DNA of 64,000 nt from Seriola aureovittata (lineage: Eukaryota > Chordata > Actinopteri > Carangiformes > Carangidae). Both the position numbers and the translations under genes were made by a program. Below the pieces are notes generated by a model. The model had not been told where the DNA came from, ran no database searches, and saw nothing but the letters and a program-made list of their open reading frames with translations. The stretch is taken from assembly GCF_021018895.1 (NCBI RefSeq), contig NC_079368.1, positions 714,501-778,500 of the forward strand, in the 5' to 3' direction. Positions 11,872-61,233 of the stretch are shown piece by piece (positions within the stretch are counted from its first letter, which is position 1; every line of letters begins with the position of its first letter).

Positions 11872-11974
11872 GTCAAGTCAAGTCAATTTTTATTCGTATA
11901 GCACCAATTCACAACATAAGTTATCTCAAGGCACTTTCCAAATAGAGCAGGTCTAGACCTTCTCTTTATAATAT
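11872..11974 (-). mobile_element. L2-type LINE, 3' end piece (first of three)
   Basis: Read on the minus strand, this ends in AATAAAAATTGACTTGACTTG, the (TTGAC)n tail typical of teleost L2 LINEs. It is preceded by CCTTGAGATAACTTATGTTG, part of the standard 3' UTR. The element is cut at 11974 by the Gypsy insertion and resumes at 16897. The rest of its 3' UTR is at 16897-17116 and its reverse transcriptase at 19291-21190. The target bases AATAT (11970-11974) are repeated at 16897-16901. Confidence 0.8.
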
Positions 11975-12187
11975 TGTAGTATCCTAAATACTTCTGGAGT
12001 TAGATAGAGGGAGCTGTAGGATCCATGGGTGGACCTGACAGGAAGTCCTGTCAGGAAGTATTTTATATAGGAAGTGATGTATGGATTGTGTGCTCTTTTG
12101 TCTGTCACTATCATCGATTAAAAGCCAAGAAATATATGATGGCGAGTTCTGTGTCCTCCTTGTGCTGCCTGGGCCCACAATATTACA
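11975..12187 (+). repeat. 5' LTR of the Gypsy element
   Basis: 213 bp, TG...CA ended. A TATA-like TTTTATATAGG lies near 12060 and the polyadenylation variant ATTAAA is at 12117-12122, giving a plausible U3-R-U5 layout. It differs from the 3' LTR by one change in TCTGTCAC/TCCGTCAC and two in GGGCCCACAA/GGGCTCCCAA. Confidence 0.95.
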
Positions 12188-12189
12188 TA

Positions 12190-12207
12190 TGGCGACGAGG
12201 ATAATTT
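12190..12207 (+). other. Primer-binding site
   Basis: TGGCGACGAGGATAATTT starts two bases after the LTR end. The leading TGG pairs with a tRNA CCA tail. I cannot assign the tRNA with confidence. Confidence 0.7.
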
Positions 12208-12328
12208 GGAGAAGAGTTTTTTGCCCTGCTCTCTGGCCACTGTGGAAGGAATTGCTTCTTTGATTGGAGGATAGGACTCCAGGTGAACAAAGGACTTGGG
12301 GGAAGGGAGGAAGACACATGCAGGTGAG

Positions 12329-13030
12329 ATGGCAACAATAGGATCCCTGCCACCATTTGATCCAAAAGTGCAAGCTTGGGAGGAATATTGCGAAATAATG
12401 GAACACTTCTTTATTGCAAATGTTATTGAGGAAGAAGAGATAAAGAAGTCCATTTTGCTTAGTGTGGTGGGAGCACAAACTTACAGTTTGATGAGAAACC
12501 TCTTAAGTCCTGCAAAACCAGGAGAGAAGACTTTTGGACAACTGGTAACTTTATTAAAGAACCACTTTAACCCCAAGCCAAGTGAAATTGTCCAGAGATT
12601 TAAATTTAATTCACGCTTGAGAAGATCCCCCGAATCTGTGTCTGAATATGTGGCAGAATTAAGGAAATTGGCACAAGATTGTGATTATGGAGCAACACTT
12701 TCACAAATGTTACGGGATAGACTGGTATGTGGAATAAATGATGACCGCATCCAAAGAAGATTATTGTCAGAGACTAATCTCACATTTGAAAGTGCCCTGT
12801 TTCTAGCACAAGCAATGGAATCTGCCAACAAGAATGTGCAGGATTTGCAAAGTAAGGCAGGAGCCATGTCCTGTAATGCAGTGAGGGCTGGAGGATCAGA
12901 GAGCACGGGGAAGAAGAGAGAGAGAGCCAGAGAAGAGCAGAAAAAGATAAAGATTGTTATCGCTGTAACGGTAAACATTCACCTGAGGACTGTTGGTTCA
13001 AATAGGAAAAGTGTCATGCCTGTGGAATAA
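12329..13030 (+). CDS. Gypsy gag (capsid), frame broken before the zinc knuckles
   Basis: Encodes the structural Gag protein that forms the intracellular particle and binds element RNA. The start chosen is the Met of MATIGSLPPFDP (12329), the usual N-terminus of this family; an in-frame upstream Met at 12296 adds 11 unlikely residues. Residues about 1-180 form the capsid-like retrotransposon gag domain (FKFNSRLRR, VSEYVAELRKLA and a cysteine-containing LVCGIND are visible). The last 30 or so codons (from about 12945) are out of frame. The expected nucleocapsid knuckles are present in the pol frame instead: CX2CX3HX4C at 12955-12993 and CX2CX4HX4C at 13012-13053. The frame offset arises in the GA/A-rich stretch about 12899-12950 and may be a slippage indel or a programmed shift. 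No perfect slippery heptamer is evident. Confidence 0.85.
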   Translation: MATIGSLPPFDPKVQAWEEYCEIMEHFFIANVIEEEEIKKSILLSVVGAQTYSLMRNLLSPAKPGEKTFGQLVTLLKNHFNPKPSEIVQRFKFNSRLRRSPESVSEYVAELRKLAQDCDYGATLSQMLRDRLVCGINDDRIQRRLLSETNLTFESALFLAQAMESANKNVQDLQSKAGAMSCNAVRAGGSESTGKKRERAREEQKKIKIVIAVTVNIHLRTVGSNRKSVMPVE

Positions 13031-16000
13031 CTGGACACATAGCTCGAGCGTGTCGCAATAAGAAAAAGTTAAATGCTGACAGGAGAAATGACAGAAGGCC
13101 CAGAGCAAGTGGAAGACGCTACACACAGGAGAGAAAAGTGCATTATTGTTCTCCCAGAGTGGCAGAAGGGAGTGATGAAGACGAACAGCCATTATCTTTG
13201 TATAATGTCTGGTGCGAAGATGAAGAGGAGGCAGTGCCCCCTTACAAGGTATGCATGACTCTAAATGGTGAACCAGTGATATTTGAAGTGGATACAGGAT
13301 GTGGACTCACCATAATGACTATGAAAGCATTCAAAGAAAAAGTGAAAAATGCCCCTCCATTAAAGAAAACTCGCCTGAAGTTGAAAACATATACAAAACA
13401 AAAGATAAAGGTGCTGGGGAAAGCATATGTGAAAGTGAATTACAAACAGCAAGAAAAGATATTGCCCATAATAGTAGTTAAAGGCACAGGTCCAAACTTA
13501 TTGGGAAGATGGTGGTTGAAGCATGTTAAATTGGACTGGGCTGAAATAAAGCACCTTGCACACCACCCACAGTCTCTGAACCTGGAGCAAGTGCACACTG
13601 CAAACCACTCACAGCTCCTGACCCTGCAGCGAGTGCTACAAAAGCATGAAGGAGTGTTTAAAGAGGAGCTGGGAATGTTAAAAGGGTTTAAAGCTACTAT
13701 TCATGTACCTGTTGATGCTGCTCCTCGCTTTTATAGACCAAGATCAGTTCCCTATGCTATGAAGCCTAAAGTTGATGCAGAGATTGACAGACTGGTAAAA
13801 GAGAACATCATTACTCCAGTCAAGTATTCTGAATGGGCAGCTCCTGTGGTTCCTTTGCTCAAACCGGATGGTGACTGTAGATTGTGTGGAGATTATAAAT
13901 TGACTGTAAATAGAGTCTCCACCCTAGAACAGTACCCCATACCCAAAGTAGAAGATTTGATGGCTGTGTTAGCTGGGGGGAAGCAGTTTACAAAACTAGA
14001 CATGAGCCATGCATATCAACAAATCCAAATGGATGATCAGTCTAAAAAGTACTTAACTGTAAATACTCACCGTGGAATGTTTACATACAACAGACTACCA
14101 TTTGGTGTATCCTCCGCTCCAGCAATATTCCAGCGAACCATGGAGGGGGTTCTCCAGGGAATTCCACATGTAGCGGTGTATCTGGATGATATACTGGTTA
14201 CCGGAGCAACCAAAGAAAGGCACCTAAAGACCCTGGATGAGGTGTTGAGCCGCTTAGAGGAGGCGGGTCTCAGATTAAAGAGAAGCAAATGCACGTTGCT
14301 GGCTGATGAAGTTCAGTATTTGGGACATAAAGTGGATGCTAAAGGAGTGCATACTGTGGAAGCCAAAGTAAAGGCTGTTGTTGATGCTCCCACCCCAACT
14401 TCAGTAACAGAGCTCAAGGCCTACCTGGGCTTGTTGAATTATTATAACCGCTTCCTTCCCAATCTCTCCACATTGCTGGCCCCTTTACATCATCTGCTGA
14501 GGAAAGATGTGGTTTGGAGCTGGGGCAAACAGCAAGAAGAATCCTTCAGGAAATCCAAAGACTTATTGAAGTCAGCTGATGTGTTAGTGCATTATTCTGG
14601 GAAGAAGGCTTTGCTATTAGCCTGTGATGCCTCACCCTATGGCCTAGGAGCCGTATTGTCCCACAAAATGGAAGATGGAACAGAAAAACCCATTGGTTTT
14701 GTATCTCGTACCTTGGCACCAGCGGAGAAGAAATACTCTCAGCTTGATAAAGAAGGTTTGGCTGTGATCTTTGGAATTAAAAGGTTCCACAAATACCTCT
14801 ATGGACGAAACTTTACAATTGTAACGGACCACAAGCCCTTGATATCCCTGTTCAATGAAACTAAACCTGTTCCTCAGATGGTGTCACCACGTGTTCAGCG
14901 TTGGGCTGTATGGCTCAGAGCTTATGAGTATCAGATTGTGTATAGACCTGGAAAGCAGCACATAAATGCAGATGCCCTCAGTAGGCTCCCCCTTCCAGAA
15001 ACATCACCTGCTGAGGAAGAGGAGGATCTGGTGCTGATGCTGGATGGAATGGATGATGCACTGGTGACCACGGAACAAATAAGACATTGGACAGCTAAAG
15101 AGGTGACATTGTCACGAGTGCAGGAGTATGTCTTAAAAGGATGGCCTTCTACAGTGGAGCCTGAACTCATGCCTTACTTCACCAGACGCTGGGAGCTCAG
15201 TGTGAGAGATGGATGTGTTCTGTGGGGGGCTCGGGTCATTATTCCTCAGAAAGGAAGGAAAACTCTGTTAAAGTTGCTGCATCAGTCCCACCCAGGAATG
15301 TGTAGGATGAAAGGACTAGCTCGGTCATATGTCTGGTGGCCACAGATGGATCGAGATGTTCAGAGGGAAGTAAACCAGTGTGACGCATGTCAACAGCATA
15401 GCATGTCTCCCTCTACAGCACCCTTACATCCCTGGGAATGGCCAGAAAAGCCTTGGACACGACTCCATGTGGATTATGCAGGTCCATTTTTGGGTAAACT
15501 GTTTTTGGTGATTGTTGATGCCCATTCTAAATGGATGGATGTATATCCAGTGACTACAGCAACCTCACATGCAACCATTGAAAAGCTCAGACAAAGTTTC
15601 AGTGTCCATGGATTGCCACAGATGTTGGTGAGTGATAATGCTACCTGTTTTACAAGTGCTGAGTTTGCTGATTTCATGTCTAAAAATGGGATCAACCATG
15701 TCACCTCAGCCCCTTTCCATCCTTCATCAAATGGACTGGCCGAAAGAGCAGTTCGAACCTTTAAGGAAGGGATGAAGAAGATACAAGGAGGAAATGAGAG
15801 CTTGGAAGCAAAAGTGTCCAGATTCCTTTTTAGTTACAGAATCACTCCACACTCTACTACAGGCTTGTCACCAGCTGAAATGTTGATGTCAAGGAGACCT
15901 AGGTCTGCCTTGGATCTGTTACTTCCAGACATGAAGTCTAAGGTGGAAAAGAAACAGTGGAAACAAAATGTTAATCATGACACGCACACAAAGCTCAGAA

Positions 16001-16407
16001 GTTTTGCACCTGGGAATCCTATATTTACAAAAAACTATGGATATGGTCCCAAATGGATTCCTGGAACGATCGAGAGCTGCACAGGTCCCCTGTCATGTAC
16101 AGTCCTCATAGGAAATGGACAGATCGTGAGGAGACATATTGATCAAATCAGGAAGAGAGAGTCCAGTGGTGTTCCTGATATAGATCCCAGTACACCTCAG
16201 GCTGTGAGCAGCCCATCTCTTATGGAGACAGGCCAAGTACAGTCCCCTGAGGTCCGGATCCCTGACTCTTCATCCCATGGGGAGGACTCTGGGAGTGCCC
16301 CACTGATACTGGGGAGTGAGTCCCCACATGTATTACAAGAACAGTTAACACCACCCTTAAGGTGCTCTATTAGAGAGAGACACCCGCCTGACTATTATAG
16401 GCCTTAA
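13006..16407 (+). CDS. Gypsy pol: protease, reverse transcriptase, RNase H, integrase
   Basis: Open from just after a TAG (13003-13005) to 16407, about 1130 codons; the first Met is at 13138 and is probably not a true start, since Pol is normally made with Gag. Counting from that Met: aspartic protease DTGCG at 52; reverse transcriptase about 210-385 with LPFGVSSAPAIFQ and catalytic YLDD at 348-351; RNase H about 490-610 with CDASPYG and TDHKPL; integrase HHCC zinc finger near 715-755 (HQSHPG...CDACQ); integrase core D779, D833, E869 with 35 residues between the last two; a C-terminal chromatin/DNA-binding tail follows. All key catalytic residues are present, which fits a young copy. A 174-bp piece around D833-E869 recurs exactly at 18370-18543. 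Only the upstream TAG between the two zinc knuckles and the gag frame offset break continuity. Confidence 0.93.
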   Translation, partial: EKCHACGITGHIARACRNKKKLNADRRNDRRPRASGRRYTQERKVHYCSPRVAEGSDEDEQPLSLYNVWCEDEEEAVPPYKVCMTLNGEPVIFEVDTGCGLTIMTMKAFKEKVKNAPPLKKTRLKLKTYTKQKIKVLGKAYVKVNYKQQEKILPIIVVKGTGPNLLGRWWLKHVKLDWAEIKHLAHHPQSLNLEQVHTANHSQLLTLQRVLQKHEGVFKEELGMLKGFKATIHVPVDAAPRFYRPRSVPYAMKPKVDAEIDRLVKENIITPVKYSEWAAPVVPLLKPDGDCRLCGDYKLTVNRVSTLEQYPIPKVEDLMAVLAGGKQFTKLDMSHAYQQIQMDDQSKKYLTVNTHRGMFTYNRLPFGVSSAPAIFQRTMEGVLQGIPHVAVYLDDILVTGATKERHLKTLDEVLSRLEEAGLRLKRSKCTLLADEVQYLGHKVDAKGVHTVEAKVKAVVDAPTPTSVTELKAYLGLLNYYNRFLPNLSTLLAPLHHLLRKDVVWSWGKQQEESFRKSKDLLKSADVLVHYSGKKALLLACDASPYGLGAVLSHKMEDGTEKPIGFVSRTLAPAEKKYSQLDKEGLAVIFGIKRFHKYLYGRNFTIVTDHKPLISLFNETKPVPQMVSPRVQRWAVWLRAYEYQIVYRPGKQHINADALSRLPLPETSPAEEEEDLVLMLDGMDDALVTTEQIRHWTAKEVTLSRVQEYVLKGWPSTVEPELMPYFTRRWELSVRDGCVLWGARVIIPQKGRKTLLKLLHQSHPGMCRMKGLARSYVWWPQMDRDVQREVNQCDACQQHSMSPSTAPLHPWEWPEKPWTRLHVDYAGPFLGKLFLVIVDAHSKWMDVYPVTTATSHATIEKLRQSFSVHGLPQMLVSDNATCFTSAEFADFMSKNGINHVTSAPFHPSSNGLAERAVRTFKEGMKKIQGGNESLEAKVSRFLFSYRITPHSTTGLSPAEMLMSRRPRSALDLLLPDMKSKVEKKQWKQNVNHDTHTKLRSFAPGNPIFTKNYGYGPKWIPGTIESCTGPLSCTVLIGNGQIVRRHIDQIRKRESSGVPDIDPSTPQAVSSPSLMETGQVQSPEVRIPDSSSHGEDSGSAPLILGSESPHVLQEQLTPPLRCSIRERHPPDYYRP

Positions 16408-16670
16408 ATAAACACTGAAAAGAAAGTGAATATTTATTCAGCTCTGCAGAGAATACCACCGTTGCTTAACTTTAATATAAAAAAAAAAAAGTAGTTGATA
16501 TAAGTTTAGTTTTTGGCAAGTTAAGTTCTTAAAGTTTGAAACAAATCTAAATTGTAAGTTACAAATTAAGAGTTAATTTGAAGTAAGTGCAACATATAAA
16601 GTTGAGTAAAGTGTATAATGTTGATTAACGTGTCTTATGTTCTCTTGCAGTGTATGTTGTCTGCAGACCT

Positions 16671-16683
16671 GAGAAGGGAGGGA
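16671..16683 (+). other. Polypurine tract
   Basis: GAGAAGGGAGGGA directly abuts the 3' LTR, the expected plus-strand priming site. The 263 bp between the pol stop and this tract are AT-rich and non-coding. Confidence 0.85.
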
Positions 16684-16896
16684 TGTAGTATCCTAAATAC
16701 TTCTGGAGTTAGATAGAGGGAGCTGTAGGATCCATGGGTGGACCTGACAGGAAGTCCTGTCAGGAAGTATTTTATATAGGAAGTGATGTATGGATTGTGT
16801 GCTCTTTTGTCCGTCACTATCATCGATTAAAAGCCAAGAAATATATGATGGCGAGTTCTGTGTCCTCCTTGTGCTGCCTGGGCTCCCAATATTACA
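16684..16896 (+). repeat. 3' LTR of the Gypsy element
   Basis: 213 bp, same ends as the 5' LTR, 3 mismatches. It is followed directly by AATAT, the duplicated target, and then by the resumed L2 3' UTR. Confidence 0.95.
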
Positions 16897-17116
16897 AATA
16901 TTATTTACAGAGACCCAACAATTCCCACCAAGAGCAGCACTAGGCGACAGTGGCAAGGAAAGACTTCCATTAAAGAGGCAGAGACCTCGAGCAGAACTGG
17001 ACTCAGGGTGGACGGCCACCTGCCATGTTGATAATAGTGATATTAGTGGCAGTAACAGCAATAGTAATGTAATGGCAACTGTAATACTCCTACTGATGAA
17101 AGTAATAATGAAGGCT
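16897..17116 (-). mobile_element. L2-type LINE, 3' UTR middle piece (second of three)
   Basis: Continues the L2 sequence interrupted at 11974 (ACAGAGACCCAACAATTCCC and GCAGAACTGGACTCAGGGTGG are familiar fish L2 3' UTR strings). It is cut again at 17116 by a second LINE. The last 13 bases, AATAATGAAGGCT (17104-17116), are repeated at 19278-19290 as the target duplication. Confidence 0.75.
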
Positions 17117-17149
17117 TCGTCTTCGTCGTCTCCCGCTTATCCGGATCCG

Positions 17150-19275
17150 GTTCGCAGGGGCAGCAGCCTCAGCAAAGAGGTCCAGACGGCCCTCTCCCCA
17201 GCCACTTCCACCAGCTCCTCCGGGAGAATCCCGAGGCGTTCCAAGGCCAGCCGAGAGATATAATCCCTCCAGCGTGTCCTTGGTTGGCCCCGAGGCCTCC
17301 TTCCCGGTGGGACATGCCCGAAACACCTCCCCAGGGAGGCGTCCAGGAGACATCCTCACCAGATGCCCGAACCACCTCAACTGGCTCCTCTCGACATGGA
17401 GGAGCAGCGGCTCTACTCCGAGTCCTTCCCGGATGACCAAGCTCCTCACCCTGTCTCTAAGGCTGAGCCCGGCCAACCTGCGGAGGAAACTCATTTCGGC
17501 CGCTTGTATTCGCAATCTTGTTCTTTCGGTCATTACCCAAATTTCATGACCATAGGTGAGGATTGGAACGTAGATCGACCGGTAAATCGAGAGCTTCGCC
17601 TTCCGGCTTAGCTCTCTCTTCCCCACAACGGACCGATTCAGCGCCCGCATCACTGCTGACGCCACCCCAATCCGCCTGTCGATCTCCCGTTCCATCCTAC
17701 CCTCACTTGTGAACAAGATCCGAAGATACTTAAACTCCTCCACCTGAGGCTGAGAACCATGGCCTCAGACTTGGAGGTGCTGATCTTTATTCGGGCCGCT
17801 TCACACTCGGCTGCGAACCACCCAAGCGAAAGCTGAAGGTCGGTGCCCGATGACGCTAAGAGGACCACATCATCCGCAAAAAGCAGGGACGAGATCCTCC
17901 CGCCACCGAACCCAAACACCTCCACCACCTGGCTGCGCCTAGAAATTCTGTCCATAAAAGTTATAAACAGAACCGGTGACAAAGGGCAGCCCTAGCGGAG
18001 TCCAACCCTCACCGGGAACAGGTCCAACTTACTGCTGGCTATGCGAACCAGACTCACACTCCTTTGGTACAGGGACTTAATGGCCGCTAACAAAGGGCAA
18101 TCCACCGCATACTCCCGGAGAGCCCCCCACAGGGAGCCCCTGGGAACCCGGTCGTAAGCTTTCTCCAAATCCACAAAACACATGTGGACTGGATTGGCAA
18201 ACTCCCATGCTCCCTCCAGCACCCTAGCGAGGGTGAAGAGCTGGTCCACAGTTCCACGCCCAGGACGAAAACCACATTGCTCCTCCTCGATCTGAGGTTC
18301 AACTATCGACTGGACCCTCTTTTCCAGTACCCTGGCACAGACCTTACCAGGGAGGCTGAGGAGTTTAACTGATAATGCTACCTGTTTTACAAGTGCTGAG
18401 TTTGCTGATTTCATGTCTAAAAATGGGATCAACCATGTCACCTCAGCCCCTTTCCATCCTTCATCAAATGGACTGGCCGAAAGAGCAGTTCGAACCTTTA
18501 AGGAAGGGATGAAGAAGATACAAGGAGGAAATGAGAGCTTGGACAGTCCTACAACATCCAGAGCCTTGAGATACCCAGGGCGGATCTCATCAACCCCGGG
18601 GCTCCGCCACCGCGCAGTTGTTTCACTACCTCGGCGACTTCTGCCCCGGAGATTAGACCATCCATCCCCAGGTCTCTTGACTCTGTTTCCTCCACGGAAT
18701 ACGTGTTGGTGGGATTGAGGAGCTCCTCAAAGTATTCCTTCCACCGTCCGACTATATCCTCAGTTGACGTCAGCAGCTCCCCGCCCCCACTGTAAACAGT
18801 GTGAGCAAGTTGCCGCCTTTCCCCCCGAGGCGCAGGACGGTTTGCCAGAACCTTTTTGGAGCCGATCGATATTCTTCCTCCATTGTATCACCGAATTCCT
18901 CCCACACCCGAGTTTTTGCCTCAGCAACTGCCGCGGCTGTGCTCCGCTTGGCCCACCGGTACCAGTCAGCTGATTATAGAGACCCACAGGCCAACCACGC
19001 CCTGTAGGCCTCCTTCTTCAGCCTGACGGCTTCCCCCACCCCTGGTGTCCACCAGCGGGTACGGGGGTTACCGCCACGACTGGCCCCAGCTACCCTGCGG
19101 CCACAGCTCCCAACAGCCGCCTCAACAACAGCAGAGCGGAACAAGGCCCATTCTGACTCAATGTCCCCCACCGCTCTCGGGACGCGATCGAAACTCTGCC
19201 GGAGGTGTGCGTTGAAAATCATCTTGACGGGTTTTTCCGCCAGGCTTTCCCAGCAGATCCTCACAACTCGTTGGG
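17150..19275 (-). pseudogene. LINE reverse transcriptase, broken
   Basis: Read from right to left: a linker region (18974-19279, FNAHLRQSFDRVPRA), then the reverse transcriptase entry ending near GYLKALDVVGL (18545-18580), then the foreign patch. It resumes with LLSLPGKVCARVLE, CGFRPGRGTVDQLFTLARVLEG and FVDLEKAYDRVPRG (17992-18369). A stop codon at 17992-17994 interrupts the conserved GLRQGCPLSP block at the glutamine. The catalytic block SSLLFADDVVLLASS follows in the same frame (17650-17982), then a frame change into the C-terminal part EEFKYLRILFTSEGRMEREI (17090-17743). At least one stop, one frameshift and the patch make it non-functional. Confidence 0.85.
18370..18543 (+). repeat. 174-bp exact copy of Gypsy integrase inside the LINE
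   Basis: Identical base for base to 15633-15806 of the Gypsy pol (TGATAATGCTACC to GAGAGCTTGGA), covering integrase D833 to E869 and beyond, in the same + orientation. It has no LTR, poly-A or target duplication. It replaces the LINE segment that in related copies encodes about 40 codons between ALDVVGL and LLSLPGK, so bases were lost and others put in. Confidence 0.9.
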
Positions 19276-19290
19276 CCAATAATGAAGGCT

Positions 19291-21190
19291 AATAACATTA
19301 ATAATAATTATTGTTAAAAAACAGGTTTAGCAGCAGGTGTTAAACAGGGTCATGGGGACAGTAGGTGGTTTGCAGTAGCAGATCCAGACTCTACAGCTGC
19401 AGCTCTGGAGGCAGAAGGACCTGTGGAGAGTAACAGGGAAGAGATAGAGAACGAGAACGGAGAGAGAGAGAGGCACAAAGTCTGGGCACTTCATGTGCTT
19501 GAGGGAAAAAACAAATGGTTAGAGTGATGCAGTGATATTCAGAAAGTTTACAGGGATCTCGTCAGCAGAACAACCTGGACTCTACTGTACTGAGTTTACT
19601 AATTTATTGAGACTGAGGCCCACCTGCCGCTGGTAGGATGGCAACAGGTACAGAGCGTGACTCTGTAAAAGAATAAGAAGCTAACTGAAGTTAAGGCATA
19701 AAAATACATGTTAAGTTTAGATTTAAAAGTCTGAACGGAGTCAGACAATCTGATATCAGCAGGGAGGTTGTTCCAAAGCAGAGGGGCCTGATAGAAAAAG
19801 GCTCTACAGCCAGCAGACGTCTTTTTAACTCTGGGAACAGACAAGAGTTATTGTTACTTGATCAAACTGGTGTCTATGTTGGGTCGGTCTAACAAGCAGC
19901 ATCTCTGTTTTGTCTGAATTTAGGAGCAAAAAAATATGAGACATCCAGCTTTTCACAGCAGACAAACAGACCTCTAAATTCTGATCTGAGAGGAATCATT
20001 AGACTTTATAGGTACATACAACTGAGTATCATCAGCATCAAAATGGAAATGAATTCCATGACTGCCAATAATTTGACCAAGAGGTGAAATATAGAGAGAG
20101 AAAAGCAGAGGGCCAAGAACAGAGCCCTGGGGTACTCCATATTTCACAGCAGAGTATGTCCATATAGTGTCATTATAGGAGACGCACTGTGTTCTGTCAG
20201 ATAAGTAGGACTTTTACCAGGTGAGGGCCAGGCCAGAAATACCAAATTTGCTTTCAAGTCGGTCTAAGAGAATACAATGAGCTATAGCTGCACTGAGATC
20301 CAGCAAGAGGAATACAGAGGAGTCGGAATCCATGCAGATCAGAAGATCATTTGCTACTTTAGTGAGCGCTGTCTCAGTGGAGTGACAGGCCCTGAAGGCA
20401 GACTGGAATGATTCAAAAAGATTGTTATTAGACAAATGACACAAATGAGACAAAAGCTCCTGAGACACAAGTCTTTCCAGTACTTTAGAAAAGAAAGGAA
20501 GGTTTGAGACTGGTTGATAATCATTTAAGGATCCTGGAACAAGGTATGTTTTTTTAAGTAAAGGTTTAACAGTAGTCTTAAAGCTACTGGGAACTGTGCC
20601 AGAAGTGAGTGATAAATTAATAATGTTCAGCACTGAAGGTCCCAGGATTGACCAAGAGGTCTTTGGAGAGCTTAGCTGGTAGAGGGTCCAGTAGACAGGC
20701 AGTGGGTTTAGAAGACAACACCAGCTTAGACAGTGCTTCAAGAGAGAATCTGTTGAAGGATAATGTATCAGGGACTCAATGTAGTGCTCTTCTTCTCCTG
20801 TAGAAGCTAGAGAAGAAGAGGTGATTTTATGTCTAATCTCATCTCTTTTATGACAGAAAATTTCTAGAAAGTCATGGGCTGTAAAGAGTGAGCAGCTAAG
20901 AGAAAAGAAATCTATCATTGTGTTTATTGTTACTGATTAACTGAGAGAAGAAGGCTGCTCTAGCAGTGGAGAGAGCACACTTATGTTTTAACACACACCT
21001 GTGCCACTGAAAGTAGAGTGCTTCAGATTTTGTTTTGTGCTATTTACTCTCCAATCTCCTGCAGGCCTGTTTCAGGGCTAAACCACGGTTTAGACCTCTT
21101 TAACCATCTGGTTTTAGTGATGAGAGGAACAACTGAGTCCAGGAGGCTAGACAGAGCTGTGTTTAATTTACTGTACAAATTTTGACTGAG
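19291..21190 (-). mobile_element. L2-type LINE, coding and 5' piece (third of three)
   Basis: Continues the split LINE after the second insertion. On the minus strand it reads an upstream coding part, reverse transcriptase, the C-terminal tail and the start of the 3' UTR (19291-19600). The 5' boundary near 21190 is where protein similarity stops and is approximate; the element appears 5'-truncated. Confidence 0.75.
19599..21165 (-). pseudogene. L2-clade reverse transcriptase, decayed
   Basis: From right to left on the minus strand: LLDSVVPLITKTRW and SKPWFSPETG (about 21060-21150); KRDEIRHKITSSS; the reverse transcriptase block SLNDYQPVSNLPFFSKVLERL; NNNLFESFQSAFRACHSTETAL; LLLDLSAA (20214-20918); then YGVPQGSVLGPLLFSLY and DADDTQLY (about 20020-20140). 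The tail APLLWNNLPADIR...TFKSKL (19599-19844) is the usual LINE C-terminus. Frameshifts and stops are frequent, and roughly 150 or more codons between the palm domain and the tail are missing compared with full-length relatives (from family knowledge). The clade call rests on these motifs and the TTGAC tail; Rex1-related CR1 is the alternative. Confidence 0.75.
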
Positions 21191-27851: not shown

Positions 27852-29560
27852 GATAGATAGATAGTTAGATAGATAGATAAACAATAATAATTAAATTAGT
27901 CCAAAGGATCTCCTGAACCTCTCTGTTCTGCAGCGCAGTGACATGAGACGTTTGCTGCACCTGTAGCTGCTTCTCTATCCTGCCAGAATGTTGTGGAGAG
28001 GATGGTTGGTATTGTCCAAGATGGCCTCCGTCTTACATTGCATGCATCTCTCCACAATAGTCCTGAGCGAGTCCAGACTCCTGCCAAGCACAGACCCTGC
28101 CTTTTTTACCAGATTGTCCAGTCTCTTTGTGTTCACATCTGACATGCTGCTGCCCCAGCAGACTGTTTACTGTCCTGGTGCACACCTAGGTATTTGTAAG
28201 TCTGCACCGCCTCAATGTCCTTCCCTTGAATGTTGACTGGCTGAAGGAGGCAGTTCTTGTCGCTCCGTTCACTGAAGGCCATCGTCAGAACCCTGTATTC
28301 CTCTTCCTGCCCGTTCCTGATACGCGCCACAATAGCTGTGTCATCTGAGTATTTCTGGATGTGGCAGGACTCAGAGTTGTACTTAAAGTCGGTCGTATAC
28401 AGTGTGAACAGGAACGGAACCAGAACTGTCCCCTGTGGAGCCCCAGTGCTGCTTATCATTGTCCCTGAGAAACAGTTACCCAGCCTAACGTATTGTGGTC
28501 GTCTTGTCAGGTAATCCACAATCCAGGACGTGAAGCACGGATCCACCTCCATCCCTTCCAGCTTGTCTTTAAGAATGGGTGGTTAGATGGTGTTAAATGC
28601 ATTTGAGAAATCAAAGACCATAATCCTCATGTAACTACCTGGCTTGTCCAAGTAAGAATGAGCCTGGTAGAGTATGTAAAGGACGCCATCATCCACTCCG
28701 TCTTCATGATGTGTGATGTGAGGGCAACCGGTCTGTAGTCATTTATCTCAGCCGGTCGTCCTACTTTAGGTACCGGAACAAGACATGATGTTTTCCACAG
28801 GACCGGGACCCTCCCTGTTTGTAGGCTTAAGTTGAAGATCCTCTGGAGAGGTTCAGCCAGCTGGGCTGCTCAGTCCTTTAACAACCTCGGACACACACCA
28901 TCCGGGCCTGTTGCCTTTCCAGGAAGTAGCCTCTTGAGCTCCGCCCTCATCTCCTCCGCTTAGACACTCACTGGCCTCCAGGGTCCAGGTCCTGAATGAG
29001 CGGGTGGTTGCAGCCTGCCTCAGTACACAGGGTTTGTAGGAAGGCTGAAGAAAAAACTGATTATGATCTGATCTGCCAAGTGGTGGTAGAGCTGAAGCAG
29101 TGTAGGCCTCCTTGACATTTGTATACAACATATTCAGTGTCTTATTTTTCCTTTGTGGGACAGTCAACATACAGAGTGAAGCCCGTTAGGTGAGAGGTGA
29201 GAGTGACATGGTTAAAATCCCCAAATATTGCAATGAATGCATCAGGGTGCTGGGTCTGTACTCTCGCAACAGTCTCGTGAATGACATCACACGTGACTGC
29301 AGGCTCTGCTCGTGGTTGAATGTATACACCAATGCCAACACTGCCTCCGGTTCATCACACTTGTTAGCCAGGGAGTTGACATTTCCCATTAGGATCGATG
29401 GTAGAACAGGCTTAAACCTCCATCTCCTAGCCTTTAGCTCAGCCCCGGCTCTGCATCCACAGTATGGCTTCTTCAGCTCAGCCAGTATGGTATGTTTAAC
29501 TCTATATCAGGACTTTAAAGCCAGGAGTTCTTTGTTCATGTACATTATTTTCTCCATCAT
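27852..29560 (-). mobile_element. Rex1/CR1-like LINE remnant with (GATA)n tail
   Basis: Minus strand. The 3' end lies in a GATA tetranucleotide array (27852-27879), the kind of short tandem tail these LINEs end in. Reading towards the right: C-terminal region (27896-28130), reverse transcriptase (28133-28700), endonuclease C-terminus (28853-29170, LPPLGRSDHN) and an N-terminal piece ILMGNVNSLANKCDE (about 29360-29400). Large parts of the endonuclease are deleted. The family name rests on motif layout and is probable rather than certain. Confidence 0.75.
27896..29470 (-). pseudogene. LINE endonuclease and reverse transcriptase, decayed
   Basis: The reverse transcriptase segment at 28133-28552 shows SWIVDYLTRRPQYVRLGNC, SSTGAPQGTVLVPFLFTLY, the catalytic-region variant KYSDDTAIV and YKYLGVHQDSK. 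A deletion follows soon after DDTAIV (EYRVLTMAFSERSDKN runs straight into PVNIQGKDIEAV). The upstream endonuclease fragment has the conserved GRSDH. Stops and frame changes separate the parts, so no functional protein is possible. Confidence 0.75.
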
Positions 29561-33974: not shown

Positions 33975-34166
33975 GTTACAGTAGCTCACCTGGTTCAGTG
34001 GCTCCATCTCTCTCCACTGTCACTGTCAAAAATAAATAAAACTTTTAAAAAAGACAAAAGGTATGAAGTGAACTATCACATGAGACAAAGAAAAAAGCAG
34101 CAAAGTCCCACAGCAGAGAATATGAAGATTGTTTGAAACATTTTTCTGATTAATTGATGGTTTCAG
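33975..34166 (+). repeat. 192-bp dispersed repeat, copy 1
   Basis: About 93% identical to 54104-54298, from GTTACAGTAGCTCACCTGG to TTGATGGTTTCAG. The start includes TAGCTCACCTGG, which fits a Pol III box A, but no box B is visible, so it may be a truncated SINE. Confidence 0.75.
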
Positions 34167-54050: not shown

Positions 54051-54060
54051 TGTGTGTGTG

Positions 54061-54103
<43 letters not shown>
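54051..54103. repeat. (TG)n microsatellite, left of a repeat copy
   Basis: TG array with one CG interruption. Confidence 0.95.
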
Positions 54104-54108
<5 letters not shown>

Positions 54109-54295
54109 AGTAGCTCACCTGGTTCAGTGGCTCCATCTCTCTCCATTGTCACTGTCAAAAATAAATAAAACTTTTAAAAAAGACAAAAGGTATGAAGTGA
54201 ACTATCACATGAGTCAAAGAAAAGCAGCAAAGTCTCAGAAGACAATATGAGGATTGTTTGACATGTTTAACATTTTTCTGATTAATTGATGGTTT

Positions 54296-54298
<3 letters not shown>
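54104..54298 (+). repeat. 192-bp dispersed repeat, copy 2
   Basis: About 93% identical to 33975-34166. It lies exactly between two TG arrays. Box A-like TAGCTCACCTGG near its start; no box B. Confidence 0.75.

Positions 54299-54351
<53 letters not shown>
54299..54351. repeat. (TG)n microsatellite, right of a repeat copy
   Basis: Pure TG array of about 26 units. Confidence 0.95.
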
Positions 54352-61106: not shown

Positions 61107-61233
61107 CATAAAGGGGGGATCGATGGCTGTTCCCCCAGCCTCAGTCAGCGGAGAGTTAAAACGCAGTTAAACTCCTGCCGAGCGGACGCTCTCCCTAACC
61201 AACCAGCCTCACTCTCATTGATTTTTTATTTAG

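Follow-up and report, generated by a model that had tools for sequence, protein, structure and literature searches.

A 174-bp stretch of Gypsy integrase DNA lies inside an antisense LINE in the window, the whole 64,000-nucleotide stretch of DNA analysed here, and our analysis suggests that it is probably a repair-mediated (templated) duplication copied from a nearby template. The patch and its donor segment agree at 174/174 bases on the same strand, the next base differs at each end, and the end of the donor is 2563 bp from the start of the acceptor.

18370..18543, + strand: acceptor patch, exact Gypsy integrase DNA within the LINE (174/174 identity, no extension at either end)
15633..15806, + strand: donor segment, Gypsy pol (integrase) region (exact match; top relatives with Pfam PF00665, precomputed)

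In a self-BLAST of the window this pair was found with an E value of 3.5e-88, so that chance is excluded as the source of the identity. At E 1e-5 the patch and donor are the sole exact long repeat of the window self-comparison, the remaining pairs being 79-99% alike, and the 98.6% pair among them represents the Gypsy LTRs. N is absent from the whole window. We looked for an LTR, a poly-A stretch and a target duplication at the patch and, reading from the sequence, found none. The initial annotation had described an exact same-orientation match with none of these marks, and both observations are borne out, with ends that are abrupt on both sides. The same window holds a ~195-bp repeat pair (33975-34166 and 54104-54298) that is 91% alike, one repeat of which is flanked by TG/GT dinucleotide runs at 54051-54105 and 54298-54351.

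The donor segment belongs to a Gypsy element that extends from 11975 to 16896, and it corresponds to residues 876-934 of an open pol frame.

11970..11974, no strand: Gypsy target-site duplication AATAT, left copy (from the sequence)
11975..12187, + strand: Gypsy 5' LTR (3/213 differences from the other LTR)
13006..16407, + strand: open Gypsy pol frame that holds the donor segment (1133 codons without a stop)
16684..16896, + strand: Gypsy 3' LTR (3/213 differences from the other LTR)
16897..16901, no strand: Gypsy target-site duplication AATAT, right copy (from the sequence)

Among the best 120 of 1271 Gypsy relatives, the integrase region has its closest named relatives in fish, with 90% identity over the searched region to the top one, from Myripristis murdjan; lower matches include lungfish, starfish, sponge and many unnamed proteins. 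The gag and pol matches of this copy fall in two separate frames, with the changeover near 12907-12934, while in the relatives P0122 and P0124 they form one continuous protein of 1340 and 1357 residues; this indicates that the Gypsy copy is frameshifted, and it is probably not autonomous, though its pol frame is open. Within the patch, seven of the 120 listed relatives are gap-free at the two flagged columns, and they share the residues of the local Gypsy in 1/7 (N897) and 0/7 (I926) cases; as these relatives are from other species or unnamed, the comparison has no copy-level resolution. From the LTR divergence, the initial annotation had expected two or three changes in a patch of the same age as the Gypsy insertion, against none seen. 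By our calculation such a patch should carry 2.45 changes over its 174 bp, and 0 are seen. The chance of this is 0.086 under a Poisson model and 0.09-0.12 as a posterior predictive value that allows for the uncertainty of 3/213, so the difference between 0/174 and 3/213 is not significant and is too weak for an inference of age. The identity of the patch is compatible with a recent origin and gives no date. Of the three LTR differences, two lie within 2 bp of each other, close to the end of the LTR; they may represent one event, in which case the Gypsy is younger than 3/213 implies.

The acceptor is a LINE copy on the opposite strand, bounded by a 13-bp target duplication, AATAATGAAGGCT.

17104..17116, no strand: LINE target-site duplication AATAATGAAGGCT, left copy (+ strand matches at 17104 and 19278 only)
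17117..19277, - strand: LINE copy, truncated and decayed, in which the patch lies (five tblastn relatives, three minus frames; a stop ends the open piece 17992-18726)
19278..19290, no strand: LINE target-site duplication AATAATGAAGGCT, right copy (+ strand matches at 17104 and 19278 only)

For the relatives search the chimeric piece was used as the query against a database of 5.8 billion proteins, and 120 listed of 763 matches were examined. The named relatives among them are mostly from fish, and relatives of this kind are the ground for taking the window to be probably fish DNA. P0005, which is among the closest, shows 85% identity in 18369-17749 and 82% in 17746-17615, and the region 18058-18369 is weakly similar to the solved LINE-1 and R2 reverse transcriptases (E 0.00035 to 0.03). 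Four relatives are filed as bacteria, namely P0074, P0079, P0117 and P0014 (Enterococcus faecium, Vibrio parahaemolyticus twice and a Pseudomonadota MAG); their contigs measure 0.5-2.1 kb, a sign that animal DNA may have entered bacterial assemblies. Elsewhere on the minus strand there is a second, more distant reverse-transcriptase-like fragment (28714-29019), with ~32-33% identity to three LINE relatives out of five, and a 240-codon open frame (20214-20936) that presumably resembles part of a further LINE reverse transcriptase, which could be of the CR1/L2 type.

Comparison with the LINE family shows how much of the element the patch has replaced. Both of the motifs that flank the patch, ...GL and LLSL, could be matched in 59 of the 120 listed of 763 relatives, the other 61 being dropped because the pattern was unmatched. 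The motifs enclose 44 codons in 55/59 relatives (43, 41, 39 and 34 in one each) and 60 codons in the patched LINE, where the interval is made up of the 174-nt patch and 6 nt. The loss of 'about 40' codons that had been proposed from this interval is therefore close to what the family gives. If the LINE copy had the family length, it would have lost about 123-132 bp (~41-44 family codons) and gained 171-174 bp of Gypsy DNA, the range of the loss depending on whether shared and doubtful junction bases are assigned to the LINE or to the Gypsy. No LINE relative was confirmed at the DNA level in viral_contigs (6 pattern matches), genome_contigs (10) or plasmids, and the junctions were therefore read from protein relatives and the genetic code.

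18541..18543, + strand: GGA, common to the patch end and a LINE Ser codon, probable 2-3 bp microhomology (Ser-Trp-Leu after GL in 14/14 aligned relatives)
18364..18369, + strand: TTTAAC at the other junction, filler or diverged LINE (at most 4/6 bases fit any Ile-Thr coding; Ile-Thr in 14/14 relatives)

At the upstream junction, in the sense of the LINE, the first family residue (Ser in 14/14 chosen relatives) is still encoded, by bases that are shared with the Gypsy end; past GGA the Gypsy reads AGC and the LINE reads CAG. A microhomology of 2-3 bp is likely here on the basis of the aligned proteins. The chance of at least three shared bases at one junction is ~5% and that of at least two ~16% (the same formula, by hand arithmetic), and the microhomology is thus weak evidence when taken alone. 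At the other junction, the poor fit of TTTAAC to Ile-Thr coding suggests that it is filler or altered LINE sequence. A template for such a filler was sought within the window and none was convincing; GGAGTTTAAC recurs once in the window, on the opposite strand at 61166, and we took this recurrence to be chance.

Taken together, these features point to repair-mediated duplication. The exactness and sharp ends of the patch in an otherwise collinear LINE, the loss of the 44-codon family segment, the signs at one junction or both, the proximity of the donor at 2563 bp and the absence of an LTR, tail or target duplication all support this explanation, and the class is known in zebrafish. As such duplications require, the patch is an insertion of more than 50 bp in a transposon, its translation has no match among the 120 listed relatives of that transposon, its donor is more than 50 bp and less than 5 kb away, and the breakpoints show a deletion of ~123-132 bp, a likely microhomology and up to 6 nt of possible filler without a poly-A/T tail. 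Both elements would already have been present when a double-strand break or a broken fork arose in the LINE copy. The broken end would have been resected, and its 3' end may then have primed on the Gypsy, ~2.6 kb distant, where it had scant homology or none. Approximately 174 bp would have been copied from the Gypsy template before the new strand left it and joined the other end through the 2-3 bp of microhomology. The route could have been synthesis-dependent strand annealing at an ectopic site, or MMBIR/FoSTeS with the template switched twice; a single scar does not discriminate between annealing of strands, end joining of the theta type and a replicative switch of template. We take the patch to be a mutational scar without function. 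The deletion, as estimated from the family, exceeds the 1-15 nt given in Table 1 of PMC2671141, and this counts against the explanation.

Break repair on a Gypsy DNA or cDNA template, or alternatively gene conversion, had been suggested in the initial annotation. The break-repair part is the best-supported reading, given the sharp and exact patch, the LINE loss, the junction signs and the lack of marks of retrotransposition, and the position of the donor would favour the chromosomal copy nearby as template rather than free cDNA. Strict gene conversion does not fit, since it depends on homology between donor and recipient beside the converted tract, and the LINE and the Gypsy share no identity adjoining the patch save for the ambiguous GGA inside the patch end. 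Nor does the patch show signs of an insertion retrotransposed by TPRT, as the flanks are unduplicated and there is no 3' tail.

The template may have been another Gypsy copy, or Gypsy RNA or cDNA, the nearness of the local Gypsy then being a coincidence or the outcome of a shared regional preference. Gypsy families are usually multi-copy, and with a young LTR pair other copies could match all 174 bp. Capture of cDNA at breaks is known, cDNA being named among the capture sources in PMC2671141, and tails and target duplications are likewise absent from the class 2 templated insertions of PMC5110952, which have been proposed to pass through RNA intermediates. If many copies could serve, however, a donor at 2563 bp would be an improbable accident, and 824 of the 1,136 published donors are within 5 kb (PMC2671141). 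We consider such a template unlikely. That Gypsy RNA or cDNA in particular, and not a chromosomal copy, served as a germline repair patch in a probable fish seems to us quite improbable; if true, the patch would document, in nature, that nucleic acid of an LTR retrotransposon had mended a break in another transposon. The same final structure could also be reached in two steps, in which a tandem duplication joins the LINE near 18369 to the Gypsy at 15633 and a deletion that starts at Gypsy 15806 and ends farther along in the LINE leaves 174 bp. This route needs the direct orientation in cis that is seen here, but it also calls for two independent rearrangements and an intermediate that left nothing, whereas one templated event covers everything, and we regard it as very unlikely.

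An assembly error was held to be the chief alternative in the initial annotation. The patch does sit in repeats. An assembly or library chimera would nevertheless require two coordinated false joins in a window without N; an overlap join needs a long shared sequence, while 3 bp is the most that either junction has in common, and one junction carries up to 6 nt with a poor fit to both elements. A chimera of this kind is thus highly improbable. An old chimeric LINE subfamily, or a LINE RNA that switched to an antisense Gypsy RNA template during retrotransposition, could account for the 244 codons over which the chimera keeps the LINE frame open. Of the antisense 174-nt windows of the Gypsy interior, 384/4026 are open in a given frame, which multiplied by one third gives a chance of ~3% for an open patch frame. 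We take the open frame to be chance, the LINE being otherwise broken, although it counts mildly against a random scar; selection for an open chimeric frame is ruled out by the other frameshifts of the LINE and its stop. With the chimera as the query, a patched relative should rank near the top, and there is none in the 120 listed of 763: these matches cover no more than 91% of the query, the best is 63% identical, and the patch translation in the LINE frame has no BLASTP match to them at E 10. The same patch in other LINE copies, which the initial annotation had named as the mark of an old chimeric subfamily, accordingly finds no support among these relatives, and we consider an origin by such a subfamily or by RNA switching extremely improbable.

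The repair-mediated duplication proposed here is a kind of DNA-repair scar that is already known from vertebrate genomes. Replicative template switching by MMBIR/FoSTeS, described in PMC2621351, is similar in combining a complex duplication with deletion and in its junction microhomology of 2-5 bp, but most of the switches reported there span tens to hundreds of kb and those considered here ~2.7 kb. The class 2 templated sequence insertion polymorphisms of PMC5110952, which are ascribed to break repair, also have microdeletions, microhomology and added junction nucleotides without a target duplication or poly-A; they are defined there by distant templates, and in the present case an identical template is found 2.6 kb away. 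A rice study of patch-mediated repair is cited in PMC7407515 and PMC6097286. The closest comparison is with Pace, Sen, Batzer and Feschotte 2009 (PMC2671141), who report 1,136 interrupted transposons holding DNA that is found at one other place. The donor is within 5 kb in 824 of them, counted in human, and within 3 kb in 753, and 80 events are given for zebrafish. Their proximal copies average 162 bp (median 147 bp), and 39/39 of the proximal cases inspected show microhomology, filler, deletion or short duplication and no poly-A/T tracts, tracts that are present in 17/29 interchromosomal cases. One case of opposite orientation is described, which indicates that direct orientation is not diagnostic of repair-mediated duplication. 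As in the proximal class, the LINE is interrupted by a short copy from less than 5 kb away, with likely microhomology, possible filler and deletion and without poly-A, and both its size of 174 bp and its distance of 2563 bp are typical. Unlike in that class, the donor segment belongs to a transposon too, and the loss of LINE sequence is larger. The screen in PMC2671141 called for a donor at one other place and for transposon parts whose ends are no more than 30 bp apart in the consensus. The patched LINE lies outside the second limit owing to its missing codons, and probably outside the first, as its donor lies in a Gypsy element; a copy from transposon to transposon with a deletion of more than 30 bp would therefore be missed by that screen. 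The patch is a clean natural instance of break repair borrowing nearby DNA in a probable fish genome, and as a single case it leaves views of the mechanism unchanged. Because the screen filtered nested transposons and multi-copy donors, patches copied from one transposon into another may be undercounted.
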